A DNA stretch of 64,000 nt from Phormidium ambiguum IAM M-71 (GTDB lineage: Bacteria > Cyanobacteriota > Cyanobacteriia > Cyanobacteriales > Aerosakkonemataceae), in contig NZ_MRCE01000007.1 of the NCBI RefSeq assembly GCF_001904725.1, positions 186,001 to 250,000 on the forward strand, written 5' to 3'. Each line of letters opens with the position of its first letter. The first letter of the stretch is position 1. Positions 48,089-53,727 of the stretch are shown in pieces. The translations under genes were made by a program, and so were the position numbers. Below the pieces are notes generated by a model that worked only from the letters and a program-made list of their open reading frames with translations, was not told the origin of the DNA and made no database searches.

Positions 48089-48718
48089 TTAAAGAAGAAT
48101 GTTTGTTAAACTACCAGAAGAATAATTAGACCAAGTATTTTGATCGGATGTATTTCGTAACAAAGCTAAAGCTAATCCATCATAAGCAATATTAGTTAAC
48201 TTGTAAGAGCCATATTTTCCATCAAGATCGACTAGTGATACGGTGTTGTTACCTTCGTATATCCATAATTCCATTGTTGACAGTGCTTCTTCTATTTGAA
48301 GGCGTGCTTCAGTAGATTGATCGAGTAAATGAAAACATTGTTGGTTAACTAAAATACCAGTTCCATGCCAATAACTATTGACGGTAGCGGCTCTGCGACC
48401 CGCTGTTCCACCTGCTACTGCTTCTAACTCTTCTTCATCCAGTTCATAGTCATCTAATTCATCAAAATTAGGCTCAGTTTTTTGACTAGCCCAACATAGA
48501 GCAAACTGCAAATCTAAGATAGTAAAGTCGTAGCCAAATTCAGCAGCTATTTCCTGAAAATTTTCGGGATTTTTAGCATTTTCTAAAGCAGATTTTAATG
48601 TAGGATTCTGTTCGATATTTTGACATAGCTCATAAATGCTTTGTTGCGCTTTGACAAAAGCATATTCTGTAGTAGGTAAGTTTTCTGCATTAATCGGCCC
48701 GATCGCATTTGTCAACAT
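48089..48718 (-). CDS. Nif11-leader RiPP precursor with very long core (first paralogue)
   Basis: This 209-residue precursor-like protein has residues 1-104 as a Nif11-type leader. ALENAKNPENFQEIAAEFGYDFTILDLQFAL carries the helix and FGYDFT mark, and DDYELDEEELEAVAGG is a textbook double-Gly cleavage signal (GG at 103-104). The remaining 105 residues are far longer than a normal lanthipeptide core and look like a folded domain (NSYWHGTGI, CFHLLDQS, EGNNTVSLVDLDG). They end in a Ser/Thr/Asn-rich tail (NTSDQNTWSNYSSGS). Only Cys128 lies in the core. AGAGGAAAC sits at good spacing before the ATG. A LanM gene lies upstream on the same strand. Confidence 0.88.
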   Translation of the reverse strand: MLTNAIGPINAENLPTTEYAFVKAQQSIYELCQNIEQNPTLKSALENAKNPENFQEIAAEFGYDFTILDLQFALCWASQKTEPNFDELDDYELDEEELEAVAGGTAGRRAATVNSYWHGTGILVNQQCFHLLDQSTEARLQIEEALSTMELWIYEGNNTVSLVDLDGKYGSYKLTNIAYDGLALALLRNTSDQNTWSNYSSGSLTNILL

Positions 48719-48923
48719 TAGTAGTTTCCTCTAAATTTCAAGATCAACACTCCTCATAAACAGGAGTAACTATAACTTGCTAAATCGATCTGGTTTTCTG
48801 TATTTTGGCAGACATAATAAACATTTAGAAATATGTGTTTAGAAAATTACAAAAGTTGAGAATTGGGTGATTTTCTAAACTTTTAGCAACAATTCATACT
48901 ATGGGTTACTTGTTTCACAACAG

Positions 48924-49517
48924 CTAAAAAATTATTTCCCAATATGAAGAAGAGAAAATACTGTCACTTCGCGCAAATTTACCGTTCTGTGTGATATTAC
49001 TTATTAAAAATGAACCCTTTTGTCCATCCTTATCAGTTACTTTAACGGTATTATTACCCATCCATGTCCATTCCTCCATGTATTGCAGTGCTTCGACTAT
49101 TACTTTTCGCTGATCGAGAGATTCCTGCAATAAGTAAAAACAGTCATCTTCTACTTGAATCCCTGTTTCATGCCAATAGCTATTCCGAAATGCACCTCGT
49201 CTGGTACCACCTGCTACTGCTTCCAATTCTTCTTCATCTAATTCGTAATCATCAAATTCATCAGAAATGGAATAGTTGTTGGCTAATTCCAAATTGATAG
49301 CAATTTGTAAATCTGAAACTGTGAATTCATAGCCATTCTCAGCTGCAATTTCGAGGAAAGAATCAATATCTTTTGTTTGCTCTATTTGAGATTTAAGATC
49401 GCCACTATTCTCTATGGCTTTAAACAAATTGTAGATAGCTTGTTGAGTTTTAACAAAGTGGCACTCTTCAGCAGGTAATTCTTCTACATTAATTGATTGA
49501 ACTGGAAGATCTGACAT
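48924..49517 (-). CDS. Nif11-leader RiPP precursor with very long core (second paralogue)
   Basis: This 197-residue paralogue of the neighbouring precursor also has a leader of exactly 104 residues. The NGYEFTVSDLQIAI stretch matches the Nif11 helix, and DDYELDEEELEAVAGG is identical at the cleavage site. The 93-residue core shares NSYWHETGI, DDCFYLLQES, EALQYMEEW and MGNNTVKVTDKDGQKGS with the other copy. It also has a single Cys (126), at the equivalent position. Its tail is short and Ser-rich (SDSIFSSSYWEIIF). The gene is 205 bases upstream of the other copy and about 800 bases downstream of the LanM gene, all on one strand. The ribosome site is weak. Confidence 0.88.
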   Translation of the reverse strand: MSDLPVQSINVEELPAEECHFVKTQQAIYNLFKAIENSGDLKSQIEQTKDIDSFLEIAAENGYEFTVSDLQIAINLELANNYSISDEFDDYELDEEELEAVAGGTRRGAFRNSYWHETGIQVEDDCFYLLQESLDQRKVIVEALQYMEEWTWMGNNTVKVTDKDGQKGSFLISNITQNGKFARSDSIFSSSYWEIIF

Positions 49518-50316
49518 GATAACTTCGATCGCTAAATGGTATTGTAAACACTGGTAATCAATTGGCTAAAATCAATTAGCACATCTGCCTTGATTTACAT
49601 AATTTTTATTTTTTGCAACCAGTTATAATTTTTGTTTAATCTATATAAAGTTTAATTGGATAAATTTTAAATAGGGATAAATTAACGATGAAGTTATAAA
49701 GAAGATTTCAAGAGTTTCTTCTAGAAAAAGTACAGAAATACACGGTTAAAACCCGGAGCAAAAGTTTTTTCAATTTTAATTCTTAGCACATTACAATTTG
49801 TTGTTTTGGCTACAAAATTTATCCGTATTTTTATGGATGAAATTTTAGTTAATTTAGTGACTTAAATCATATTCGTTTGATTTCAAACCTTGTAAAGACT
49901 TTACATATAGCGCCTCCACAGGGTTTAGAATTATGAGATTATGGTTTAACCATACAAACACAGCGCACGTCGTCTCAGCAGAATCAAGAATACAAAGGGT
50001 ATTTAATACTACTCAGTTTCAAGGTAAATTCTTCCTTTAACCCAAAAAATACTGACTCAAGTAAATGGAACTGGACTTACGCACTGAGACTAAACAAAGA
50101 GTTATAGCGCCTTACATCCGTACTTTAGCGTAGATTGAGATCTAGGACTTACGCAGATACTCTAGATACAGGGGCAACCACAGGGGGATTGCTTCTACAA
50201 GTTGTGTTTATTCTCATAATTTGCGGAAGTCCTGAGTAGTACAGCGAAACACGCTAACGTTTTAGACGCGAAGAGAACAGGAAAAATATAAAGGGGTAGC
50301 AAACTTAGATTTGGTA
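49518..50316. other. 800-base gap between LanM and the precursor genes
   Basis: No frame with a Nif11 leader or double-Gly signal was found on either strand. The gap probably carries a separate promoter for the precursor genes. It contains the GGACTTACGCA repeat (50143-50233) and a second isolated GGACTTACGCA at about 50083. The rest is AT-rich and apparently non-coding. Confidence 0.55.
50143..50233. repeat. Full-length GGACTTACGCA dispersed repeat with inverted ends
   Basis: The left end AGGACTTACGCAGA and the right end TTTGCGGAAGTCCT are imperfect inverted repeats. The interior matches the 12295-12365 copy. The size (about 90 bases) and inverted ends fit a MITE-like element. It lies between the lanthipeptide synthetase and its precursors. 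Confidence 0.65.
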
Positions 50317-53300
50317 TTAATCCCAAAGTAGAACGGAAGGTAACAGTTCTGGGTATGCTAACCGAAGTAATTCGTAGCCAATTCCCGAAGTTCCTTGAAA
50401 AAAGCTGGGACTAAATACAGAATTAGGTAAATTCGGTAACTTATATCCTCCAGATTTTTCTGCCCAATTAACTGCCCAAGTGGTTCTTTGTTCCGCAATT
50501 AATTTTAAGTTAGGACGGGATAGTTTTTCCGCAGCCACTTGTAATAGTTCTATGCGACCAAAATTACCACAACAAACGCAATCTACATCTTGTAAACTAT
50601 ATTTTTGCGTTGTTTGTAAAGCAATTTCTATATCCTGTTCAATTTCATTTGTGTTTAAAATTGACCAGCTACCCAATCTAGCTAATCCAATTCCAGTTGC
50701 ACCATGACACCAACTGACTGCAAAACTAGGTTGACCATTTTGTTGAGCAAATGCTCGAAAATCAGGCCAATTTGCCGCAGTCGGGGAAAATACGCTACGC
50801 TCATAATTAATACCGTCAATTGCTGCGGTTAAAAAAGCTTCATTTTGTGTAACTGCATAAAGTTGTAATAGAGCATAAGCAATCCCTGCGGCACCATGAG
50901 AAAAGCCTGTATAATGTTTTTGTCCTAAAATCTGCCAAGCTTTGCCTGATTTATAATTTTGAGTGGAAAGATTTGGATAGATAATTTGTTTTTTTGGTTC
51001 TGTTTGATGGGCAAGTAAATGTTGGCCGCAATTAACAGCTATTGCTAGTACATTTCGATCTTTTGTGACTTTGTATAAAGCTAATAATCCTAATATTGCT
51101 CCGGCTGCGCCGCCAATAATATCAAATTGTTTGTCAGTATTTATGAGTTCGGGAGTAATTAATCGAGCAACAGCTAAAGCATCTTCTAAAAGTGTTGGTT
51201 CTTGGAGAAATTGACTGGCTTTCACTAAGGAATAAATAATGGAACCTAAACCTGTACCTCCGCCAATTCCTACGCGCACAAATTTGCGAATAGATTCAAA
51301 ATCAGCTGTTTGAATAATTTTTTGAATTGGTTGAAAAGCAGCTAAACTTAGTTGATGAAATTGTTGTGTGCCTCTGACATAATCTAATGCTGATAAAAAT
51401 AATGCAATTCCGCCATTGCCGTTGTACAAATCTTCAGGTAAAGGCATTAGTTGAAAAATTTCGACGTTAGGAATATAGGCAAAACTAATCCACTTTACAC
51501 TGCCATCTTTTCCCCAAATTACTCGTTGTTCTATTTCTGTAGCAATGCGATTTGCTTCTTGAAGTAACTGCTTTTTACTTAAAGGTTGTAAATGAGACAA
51601 ATCTTGGGGAATTAAGTTGTTTAAGCTGGGAGTTAGGGGATGATTAATAAAGTTATTTCGCACTACTCTGGCATAAAAGGAACCTTGTATTATCTCTATT
51701 TGTTGAGCTAAATTTGTTTCGTTTAAATCTTGTATTTGGCAGATAACTGCCTGATAACTCGAATCTTTAAAGTATTGTTCTATGGGTTGTTCTACTCCTA
51801 TTGTTAGGTCTTGACTGTCGGTATAAGCGCCAAAGTAGGGAATATCCATTTGTTCCATTGCTTTTAGTTCAGCATGAAAGATTGACCAAGCATTTGGTTT
51901 TTGGTCAGTAAGCAAAAAAGCACGGGAGAGAATGTCTAATTCAATGCTGCGATCGATCCCATTAAGAAAAAATTGTGGTGCAAAAGTTTTCTGTAGAATT
52001 GTCCAATAAATTCTAGTGGCGCGAAAAATAAACCGCACGCGCTGATTTTTCATTAATAATAAAGGGGTGTTGGATGCTAGCAAAATTTCTCGTTTTTCCA
52101 TTAAAAACTGATACATTTGCTCAAATCCACTGACTATCTCGGCTAAATAATCATTGGGAGACAGGGGAAATTTATTTAAAACTGGAACATTAGGAGGAAT
52201 GGAAAATTGTAAATCTTTTGTCCCTCCTCCTTCTTCTGGTGGTGCGGTTACTTGGGCTTCAACACTACCTAAAGCGCTAGTATCATAAGCTAACCGCTTG
52301 TTTTTTCCAAATTCCCAACGGGGTAATAAACCTGTGCGTAAAACTGAGTCAGCGAAGTGGGAATTTACCGTAATTTCTGCTTCAGTTTCTGATTGTAATT
52401 CTGCTAATGGATTGACTTCTTGGTGCATGATAGTTTCCATATCAATTAACACCAAATGTTCTCCATGTGCGATTAAGTTTTCCCGGTGACAGTCAACTAC
52501 TCGTAGTGCATAAAGCAGACATAATAACATTCCAGAACGTTGATAAAAACGCTTGGCTGCGGCTTCGTCTTCACAAGGTAAATGTTCTACATATTCTACC
52601 CAGCCGTGTGTTTGGTAATCGCAAACTTTTAAAATTTTGAATTTTAAAGGTATTCCTTGCTGATTGCACCATTCTAAAAACTGTGTATAAGCTACTTCTG
52701 CTCCTAAACCTTTGGGTTTATATACTAGTTGCAATCCTGATTCAAAAGAGAGTGCAATTACTGTTTTACCGCCATTATGAGGATCGGAAAGTGCTGGATT
52801 TATTTTAATAACTTTTCCTAACTTATAACTGGCATTTTGTTTTGGTTGGAATACTTGGGTAATATCATTTAAGTTAGCTTGCAAACGCTGTAAAAAGTTC
52901 GCTGTTGCTTCTACCCAGAAGTCAACTGCTGTTGCCATTAATCTGCCTAGTACAGGATAATTCTGGAAAAAATTTATTAGTCCATCTTGCAAAATTTTTT
53001 GGACAAAAGCATCATACTGTACTTTAATTTGCGCTCGATCGCCTGTAGATTGGCGCAATAAATTAAGTAAATTTTGACCTAAAGGACGAGAACGTGCAAA
53101 TTCATATTCTAAAGTTTTTCCACTTAAATTTAAAAGTTGATTTAGTAAATTACGTTCTAATGTAAAATAAGCAGAACTTGAAAGTAAATCTAAAAGCAAT
53201 GATGCTGGAAAATTTAGCGAATTGAATAATTTTCTTCTGGCTATATAGATAGCTGGTAGTAATATTTCTTTAAAGGGCAATTTAATTCCGGGATCTAGAG

Positions 53301-53727
53301 GTAATCGATCGATATGATTAATTATTGGATGATTAGATTCATCATCAGAAATAAAATAATGCTGATCTTTGAGTTCACAAGCAAAAATTTCTGCTCTTTT
53401 TTCTGGATCGTTAAATAATAACCAAGCAGCCTCGATAATTTCGCTTAAAGTATCTGCCCAAGTTGGCAAAATTTCAGGATTTACAGTGGGAAGCGATCGC
53501 ACAATTTGATTGGCTTGTTCTAAATTCAAATTATCCCAGATCAAGCGTTTGGCAAACTTTTCTCTGTTTCCTTGGGCTACCACTTGACACCAACGTTCCC
53601 AACGCGGATGATTTTGTGATTCACTAGTATCTGTATCATTAACTGCAAATGGTGGCATTGAAAGGCGCTCTGACAGAGAGGTAGCTTGGGCTACAATTTT
53701 TGCTAAGTCGGATTTGGCGATTTTCAT
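50317..53727 (-). CDS. Class II lanthipeptide synthetase LanM (CCG / ProcM-like)
   Basis: This 1136-residue LanM has an N-terminal dehydratase (DUF4135) and a C-terminal LanC-like cyclase. The dehydratase shows VYKPKGLGAE with the kinase-like Lys, VVDCHRENLIAHG near 405-415, VLIDMETI, and FRATRIYW with the Arg/Thr pair. The cyclase (about 780-1136) has GFSHGAAGIAY near 940, a zinc-ligand Cys in SWCHGATGIG near 1005 and a Cys-Cys-Gly (VCCGNFGR) near 1050. That is the three-Cys zinc site of the substrate-tolerant ProcM clade. Precursor genes with Nif11 leaders lie downstream. No lantibiotic transporter or immunity gene is nearby. It is expected to phosphorylate and eliminate Ser/Thr, then add Cys to form thioether rings. 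Confidence 0.95.
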   Translation of the reverse strand: MKIAKSDLAKIVAQATSLSERLSMPPFAVNDTDTSESQNHPRWERWCQVVAQGNREKFAKRLIWDNLNLEQANQIVRSLPTVNPEILPTWADTLSEIIEAAWLLFNDPEKRAEIFACELKDQHYFISDDESNHPIINHIDRLPLDPGIKLPFKEILLPAIYIARRKLFNSLNFPASLLLDLLSSSAYFTLERNLLNQLLNLSGKTLEYEFARSRPLGQNLLNLLRQSTGDRAQIKVQYDAFVQKILQDGLINFFQNYPVLGRLMATAVDFWVEATANFLQRLQANLNDITQVFQPKQNASYKLGKVIKINPALSDPHNGGKTVIALSFESGLQLVYKPKGLGAEVAYTQFLEWCNQQGIPLKFKILKVCDYQTHGWVEYVEHLPCEDEAAAKRFYQRSGMLLCLLYALRVVDCHRENLIAHGEHLVLIDMETIMHQEVNPLAELQSETEAEITVNSHFADSVLRTGLLPRWEFGKNKRLAYDTSALGSVEAQVTAPPEEGGGTKDLQFSIPPNVPVLNKFPLSPNDYLAEIVSGFEQMYQFLMEKREILLASNTPLLLMKNQRVRFIFRATRIYWTILQKTFAPQFFLNGIDRSIELDILSRAFLLTDQKPNAWSIFHAELKAMEQMDIPYFGAYTDSQDLTIGVEQPIEQYFKDSSYQAVICQIQDLNETNLAQQIEIIQGSFYARVVRNNFINHPLTPSLNNLIPQDLSHLQPLSKKQLLQEANRIATEIEQRVIWGKDGSVKWISFAYIPNVEIFQLMPLPEDLYNGNGGIALFLSALDYVRGTQQFHQLSLAAFQPIQKIIQTADFESIRKFVRVGIGGGTGLGSIIYSLVKASQFLQEPTLLEDALAVARLITPELINTDKQFDIIGGAAGAILGLLALYKVTKDRNVLAIAVNCGQHLLAHQTEPKKQIIYPNLSTQNYKSGKAWQILGQKHYTGFSHGAAGIAYALLQLYAVTQNEAFLTAAIDGINYERSVFSPTAANWPDFRAFAQQNGQPSFAVSWCHGATGIGLARLGSWSILNTNEIEQDIEIALQTTQKYSLQDVDCVCCGNFGRIELLQVAAEKLSRPNLKLIAEQRTTWAVNWAEKSGGYKLPNLPNSVFSPSFFQGTSGIGYELLRLAYPELLPSVLLWD

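Follow-up and report, generated by a model that had tools for sequence, protein, structure and literature searches.

Two Nif11-leader precursors with long, conserved cores beside a LanM gene in Phormidium ambiguum: a candidate protein-sized class II lanthipeptide system

Introduction

Two-component class II lanthipeptides such as haloduracin and lichenicidin have cores that are shorter than the ones considered here and that contain several Cys residues. This paper deals with a locus of Phormidium ambiguum IAM M-71 (contig NZ_MRCE01000007.1, positions 186,001 to 250,000; this whole stretch of 64,000 nucleotides is called the window, and positions are counted from its first letter), in which an intact gene for the class II lanthipeptide synthetase LanM lies beside two genes encoding paralogous precursors. 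Each precursor joins a Nif11-type leader to a long, conserved core. From sequence comparison, this is probably a class II lanthipeptide system with two protein-sized components that would be modified in their cores by LanM and exported.

The systems closest to this locus have mostly short products. According to Haft et al. (2010; PMC2887384), core length averages 26 for NHLP precursors adjacent to LanM, and Nif11 cores are short and hypervariable. Prochlorosins are described as a system in which one LanM serves many short cores (PMC10783134). The same paper mentions long cores of Synechococcus SyncA, from YcaO clusters. Roseocin (PMC10027976) is a further two-component class II lanthipeptide. 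For Pseudanabaena galeata, PMC11356792 describes 'cyanotin', with a LanM lacking zinc ligands and a Cys-free Nif11 precursor having a leader of 83 and a suffix of 29 residues. A lanthipeptide survey considered open reading frames (ORFs) of up to 100 residues whose final Cys lay within the C-terminal third, and its inferred cores measured 7–53 residues (PMC11251773). In the literature searched, which did not cover closed journals and took in most papers by their listed entries only, no long, conserved Nif11 cores associated with LanM were recognised.

The Precursor Pair and its LanM

The features of the locus, all on the minus strand, are the following.

50317..53727, minus strand: LanM, class II lanthipeptide synthetase, 1136 residues (ORF list, Pfam, NCBIfam, motifs)
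48924..49517, minus strand: beta precursor, 197 residues (Nif11 leader and 93-residue core)
49206-49517, minus strand: beta leader, 104 residues, ending AVAGG (Nif11 models, double Gly)
48927-49205, minus strand: beta core, 93 residues (segment after the double Gly)
48089..48718, minus strand: alpha precursor, 209 residues (Nif11 leader and 105-residue core)
48407-48718, minus strand: alpha leader, 104 residues, ending AVAGG (Nif11 models, double Gly)
48092-48406, minus strand: alpha core, 105 residues, with Ser-rich C-terminal tail (segment after the double Gly)
48335..48361, minus strand: alpha Thr16 (48359-48361) to Cys24 (48335-48337), candidate site of a single methyllanthionine ring (joint loss of Thr16 and Cys24)
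49140..49166, minus strand: beta Thr14 (49164-49166) to Cys22 (49140-49142), proposed single methyllanthionine ring (columns of alpha Thr16 and Cys24)

In the direction of transcription, LanM is followed by a gap of 799 bp, the beta precursor, a gap of 205 bp and the alpha precursor. Because 799 bp separate LanM from the first precursor, a single transcript is not assured. With 945.7 bits, the enzyme exceeds the TIGR03897 cut-off of 304; it also matches PF13575 (DUF4135) and PF05147 (LanC-like). It contains YKPK, DCHREN, LIDMET, RTGLLPRW, CHG and CCGNFG (CCG-type cyclase), which we take to be the kinase/lyase (dehydratase) motifs and the zinc-binding motifs CHG/CCG of the cyclase.

Both leaders pass the Nif11 models of Pfam (33.0 and 36.1 bits; cut-off 23.8) and TIGR03798 (36.6 and 35.2 bits; cut-off 32.3). 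Residue 104 closes the motif DDYELDEEELEAVAGG in each of them, and the last 16 residues, ending in the double Gly, are identical. The cores align with 47% identity and have one Cys each, in a common column. With 105 and 93 residues and this one Cys, they do not resemble the short, hypervariable, low-complexity cores rich in Cys, Gly and Ser of the N11P family (TIGR03798). The first-pass annotation of this DNA had read two paralogous precursors with 104-residue leaders and 105- and 93-residue cores, as well as a LanM upstream on the same strand. The ORFs, the alignment and the model matches bear this out, and the presence of two long-core Nif11 precursors beside an intact LanM is confirmed.

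A Conserved Core Family of Two Types

A profile of the two cores matched 11 of the 388 genomes of the order sample (E up to 0.01), of which eight were kept after review; at most 12 candidates were scored per genome, so that distant relatives may be missed. Rejected were the matches in G158 and G225, HisA-like and ThiE-like by sequence inspection without a family search, and the one in G307, judged from the core-profile scan alone to contain stops inside the matched stretch (here and below, G, C and L numbers denote genomes, contigs and loci). The same core thus occurs in 13 precursors across eight genomes, the window pair included. It was found in 7/10 genomes of the family to which P. ambiguum belongs and in 1/20 of the family of G241. 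In a sample of the phylum, one genome of 386 had the core, namely the present one; the remaining positives were not among the matches of that sample. A scan of a collection of genome contigs yielded one relative, Phormidium sp. LEGE 05292 (L025), in which the locus is present, and a plasmid collection searched with the alpha core only gave no match.

The family is divided into an alpha and a beta type. Support for this split is 96/96 in the core tree, 91/90 in the tree of whole precursors and 41/80 in the leader tree. In five of the eight genomes there is one open copy of each type, as expected of paired precursors; the exceptions are G032 (alpha only), G108 (beta only) and G241 (one copy without type). 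Two genomes (L052:8993-9229 and L056:15677-15847) probably retain, near the beta gene, what is left of a third copy of the core.

Pairwise Nei-Gojobori estimates, made without a significance test, point to constraint on the cores. Compared with G125, of the same genus, the ratio of nonsynonymous to synonymous substitution rates (dN/dS) is about 0.24 for the alpha core and 0.31 for the beta core, and about 0.20 and 0.22 for the leaders. Core values lie between 0.21 and 0.33 in six of seven orthologue pairs. The cores are therefore constrained, and by these estimates most pairs show a slightly higher rate of change in the core than in the leader. Because the core recurs in 13 precursors of eight genomes at such low dN/dS values, the window pair is more than a chance arrangement.

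Conservation is marked at the core start, where SYWH is present in 12/13 cores and SYFH in the remaining one, with a Thr following in 11/13. Ser11 is found in 13/13 cores, Ser31 in 12/13, and Thr16 and Cys24 in 11/13 each, while M45, N53 and D60 are invariant. The first-pass annotation had placed a single Cys at the same position in both cores; this holds for the window, yet is not universal in the family, as two of the 13 cores have no Cys and three have two. Thr16 is absent from exactly the two cores that lack Cys24, the sister beta cores of G074 and G108. Since both residues were lost together, once, Thr16-Cys24 is the first candidate for a thioether ring, although from sequence comparison this placement, taken alone, is tentative. 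Modification of the Ser/Thr-rich tails alone, which had also been proposed, is weakened, because the Ser-rich tail is conserved in the alpha type only and the beta type has none, while SYWH and the Thr near the core start are conserved.

A search of the cores against all proteins and a model of their fold had been called for. No known family matched: the best E values were 0.024 in Pfam and 0.022 in PHROGs, each in single members, and sequence searches of solved structures returned only E values of 0.15 and 0.41. AlphaFold2, run with four sequences, gave a low-confidence model, with a mean predicted local distance difference test (pLDDT) of 51 for the whole precursor and 55 for the core. In the better middle part of this weak core model, the order of elements is beta-beta-alpha-beta-beta-beta. 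A fold search with the core model, weak as it is, found nothing above noise (lowest Foldseek E 0.75, highest VIA Z 3.2).

A LanM Clade With Long Cores

The LanM survey comprised 136 loci, the majority of which surround LanM genes from the order sample, among the matches listed; it did not include LanM fragments, for instance in G162, G253, G283, G187, G179 and G378, and zinc motifs were called by a simple string search for CHG and CCG. A quick IQ-TREE of 129 LanMs, with support from the Shimodaira–Hasegawa-like approximate likelihood ratio test (SH-aLRT) and no bootstrap, places the window LanM in a clade of 11 rows (SH-aLRT 100). These are seven LanMs of core-positive genomes, L172 and L173 (of G104 and G150), and L060 and L177. 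The loci and genomes of this clade contain 11 precursors with 87–110 residues past the double Gly, as detected with a leader profile. At the other LanM loci, 153 of 170 leader-like ORFs (85 loci) have a double Gly, followed by a median of 26 and a maximum of 57 residues. For the nearest LanMs outside the clade with a precursor found, cores reach up to 37 residues. In this comparison L054, L056 and the window itself were excluded from both sets, L052 and L053, precursor loci of clade genomes without a LanM there, were counted with the clade, and some ORFs were counted twice because of overlapping loci such as L072/L080 and L168/L191.

In G104, the precursor and its LanM are 2.9 kb apart and on opposite strands, and the precursor core could be aligned with the window family in its first residues only (SSYYH-x-TGI). 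When the leader end and the SYWH-TGI segment were combined in a profile, 48 of the 388 genomes matched (E up to 0.01); outside the eight core-positive genomes, a score above 25 bits was reached by G104 alone, its own sequence being a row of that profile. At L173 no precursor was found, and the contig ends nearby.

Several loci of the survey deserve separate mention. In G104, next to the LanM of the clade, KYPSD-repeat double-Gly precursors stand beside two ATP-grasp-type genes (L172:1707-4953), and in the one gene of these that was tested, the MvdD pre-ATP-grasp domain is present. A graspetide and a LanM system apparently lie side by side here, the KYPSD precursors looking like ATP-grasp substrates; with 64 and 27 residues after the double Gly, they stand outside the count of 11. 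The genome of P. ambiguum has a second LanM (L060:508-3657, contig C67), which like L177:5028-8171 has kept the dehydratase motifs and lost the zinc motifs. Beside both genes there is an ORF, conserved in these two genomes of different families, with 101 and 91 residues after a GA-type end. It matched no Pfam or NCBIfam leader family and was missed by the leader profile; from position and conservation, one may guess that it encodes a precursor. Homology of its long core with the window core, suggested by eye, found no support in hhalign (probability 0.4%) or in shuffles (2/26 pairs with p <0.05). LanMs without CHG or CCG also occur at L134, L135, L140, L163, L170, L171 and L191, beside two to eight candidate precursors with Cys-less cores, for which the Pseudanabaena galeata system is a published parallel (PMC11356792). 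Finally, next to a second, distant LanM in G032, a 307-residue protein (L054:1715-2638) has an N-terminal Nif11 domain, and its remaining approximately 250 residues gave no Pfam match.

LanM in Core-Positive Genomes and the Search for a Short Precursor

All eight core-positive genomes have a LanM, compared with 117/388 of the order sample, so that homologues are not mostly found without this enzyme, the outcome that would have spoken against the pairing made in the first-pass annotation. LanM adjoins the precursors in five of the eight (the present genome, G000, and G125, G055, G139 and G241), with gaps below 800 bp, 422–576 bp in the four relatives. In G108 (L056), LanM is in three pieces about 12 kb from the precursors, the alpha gene is shortened and the beta gene is open, and fragments resembling CHAT, HlyD and C39 are seen by appearance. 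As members of the family carry LanM even without this core, co-occurrence is weak, non-independent evidence, and more weight is given to adjacency and to the core-length test in the LanM clade.

A better-matching short precursor elsewhere would point to another substrate of LanM. Nif11 searches of the genome gave five matches: the two window genes, two short proteins without double Gly and one of 105 residues with a Cys-less part after the double Gly. Only the window pair joins a double-Gly leader to a Cys-containing core. Two NHLP-like matches were below the cut-off, neither of them with a double Gly and a Cys-containing core; one resembles nitrile hydratase alpha, and the other has 125 residues, a CC end and no double Gly. 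The Nif11 and NHLP leader searches, which did not extend to other leader types, thus detected no short precursor combining a double Gly with a Cys in its core. Within the window, no other small ORF passed a double-Gly pattern, which is imperfect in that it missed the G104 precursor.

Export Genes and Neighbours

A gene for a TpsA protein (PF05860) directly follows the precursors in six relatives (L050, L051, L052, L053, L055 and L057). Beyond it, L050 has CHAT-TPR, HlyD and C39 ABC transporter genes according to Pfam. In L051 and L055 the genes that follow look like CHAT, a cNMP-binding gene and HlyD, and L055 also has what looks like the start of a C39 gene. At L057 a TpsB gene comes next, and other genes do so at L052 and L053. 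In P. ambiguum a matching TpsA/CHAT/C39 set lies on contig C33, its TpsA being 76% identical. The C39 transporter of this set passes TIGR03796, and behind it a TIGR03797 gene is cut by the end of the stretch; contig C37 carries a further exporter pair passing TIGR03796 and TIGR03797. In total, the genome has seven C39 matches. Since TpsA and CHAT genes neighbour the precursors in relatives, the products may have a role at the cell surface or in contact between cells. TpsA-like proteins are numerous in this genome, a single TpsA query matching 55 stretches on 15 contigs.

Proposed Pathway and Rival Explanations

In the two-component lanthipeptide reading proposed here, LanM would bind the Nif11 leaders of both precursors and dehydrate a few conserved Ser and Thr residues near the core N terminus (SYWH-x-TGI). 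Most likely it would then close one Thr16-Cys24 thioether ring in the conserved core of about 95–105 residues. The NHLM-type C39 ABC transporter of contig C33, with a second set on C37, would cut after the double Gly and export the alpha and beta proteins, which may act jointly. That LanM is paired with long, conserved cores, as noted in the first-pass annotation, gains support from the homologues, from the LanM tree and from the two leader-family searches, in which no better short precursor came to light; two of the three outcomes named there as refuting were looked for, and neither was seen. The product itself is a putative modified protein. More tentatively, the LanM clade may have switched from short peptides to small protein domains, with a single thioether in each of two secreted partners of about 100 residues. 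It would then serve two or more core types, namely the SYWH-TGI domain, the SSYYH type of G104 and perhaps another one whose LanM has a dead cyclase (L060, L177), with the products acting beside a two-partner-secretion adhesin.

A number of observations weigh against this interpretation. Seven of the eight core-positive genomes belong to one family, of which all ten sampled members carry LanM, including three that lack this core. The joint loss of Thr16 and Cys24 is a single evolutionary event in sister sequences, and in this Cys-less beta pair the core dN/dS is near 1.2, with very few changes. In G104, the two further double-Gly precursors near LanM make the pairing ambiguous. Others among these points lend themselves to different explanations. 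The long cores might be unmodified proteins with double-Gly/C39 export as in class II bacteriocins, forming a cassette with TpsA and CHAT, while LanM serves other substrates or none. This would fit the position of TpsA directly after the precursors in 6/8 loci, compared with 5/8 in which LanM adjoins them, the location of an intact LanM at about 39 kb in G032 and on another contig in G074, and the beta cores without Cys in G074 and G108. Yet core size tracks the LanM clade, LanM and precursors seem to decay jointly in G108, and the Nif11 and NHLP searches offered LanM no alternative double-Gly precursor with a Cys-containing core. Moreover, both precursors failed the CTB family bacteriocin model NF038167 (13.8 and 14.2 bits; cut-off 32), and we regard this explanation as unlikely.

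Two further explanations accept that LanM acts on the precursors. The enzyme might only dehydrate or phosphorylate Ser/Thr residues such as Ser11, the Cys being structural or forming a disulfide and no ring being made; otherwise this overlaps with the preferred explanation. Ser11 is indeed more constant than Cys24, and the LanMs L060 and L177, which lack both zinc motifs, belong to the same clade. The window LanM, on the other hand, has kept CHG and CCG, and Cys24 was lost only alongside Thr16, in one event. We consider a ring-free product rather doubtful. The long core might also be a follower or carrier, of which the first 25 residues or so are modified and released by a protease as a short ringed peptide, the rest being discarded. 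Within the core, conservation is highest in SYWH-x-TGI, which is also the sole part that could be aligned with the G104 precursor. CHAT is a caspase-like domain, and a CHAT gene stands behind TpsA both in some relatives and, in the present genome, on contig C33, making it a candidate for this protease. The remaining core is conserved too, however, including its three invariant residues, and a follower function seems quite improbable.

Comparison With Known Systems

If LanM acts on these cores in the proposed way, thioether stapling would reach conserved protein domains about twice the 53-residue maximum of the surveyed cores (PMC11251773). The size rule given there would exclude both window precursors, so that mining for short, Cys-rich peptides can miss such products. 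The locus would then also hold a natural enzyme for placing a single ring in a protein, and if the LanM clade does act on protein domains, secreted dehydrated or thioether-stapled proteins would be expected.

Several described systems share features with this locus. It is like the Nif11-derived LanM substrates and prochlorosins in having a Nif11 leader, a double-Gly site, a LanM nearby or in the genome and a CCG-type cyclase. It differs from them in its cores of 93–105 residues, which are conserved, have one Cys and fall into two types; instead of many short cores for one LanM, there are two double-Gly precursors. With the two-component class II lanthipeptides it shares a locus with two paralogous precursors, one per type, of old duplication, whereas its cores are much longer, with one Cys rather than several. 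The NHLM export system (TIGR03796/TIGR03797) has a counterpart in the C39 peptidase ABC transporter and HlyD near Nif11 precursors in relatives (Pfam, L050), although in P. ambiguum the export genes are on other contigs, one set behind TpsA and CHAT. As in the cyanotin system, a cyanobacterial LanM is found with a Nif11 precursor, but the window LanM keeps its zinc motifs. Altogether, the pathway looks like that of a class II lanthipeptide in its leader, enzyme and exporter, and departs from the Nif11 and prochlorosin pattern in lacking the short, variable core.

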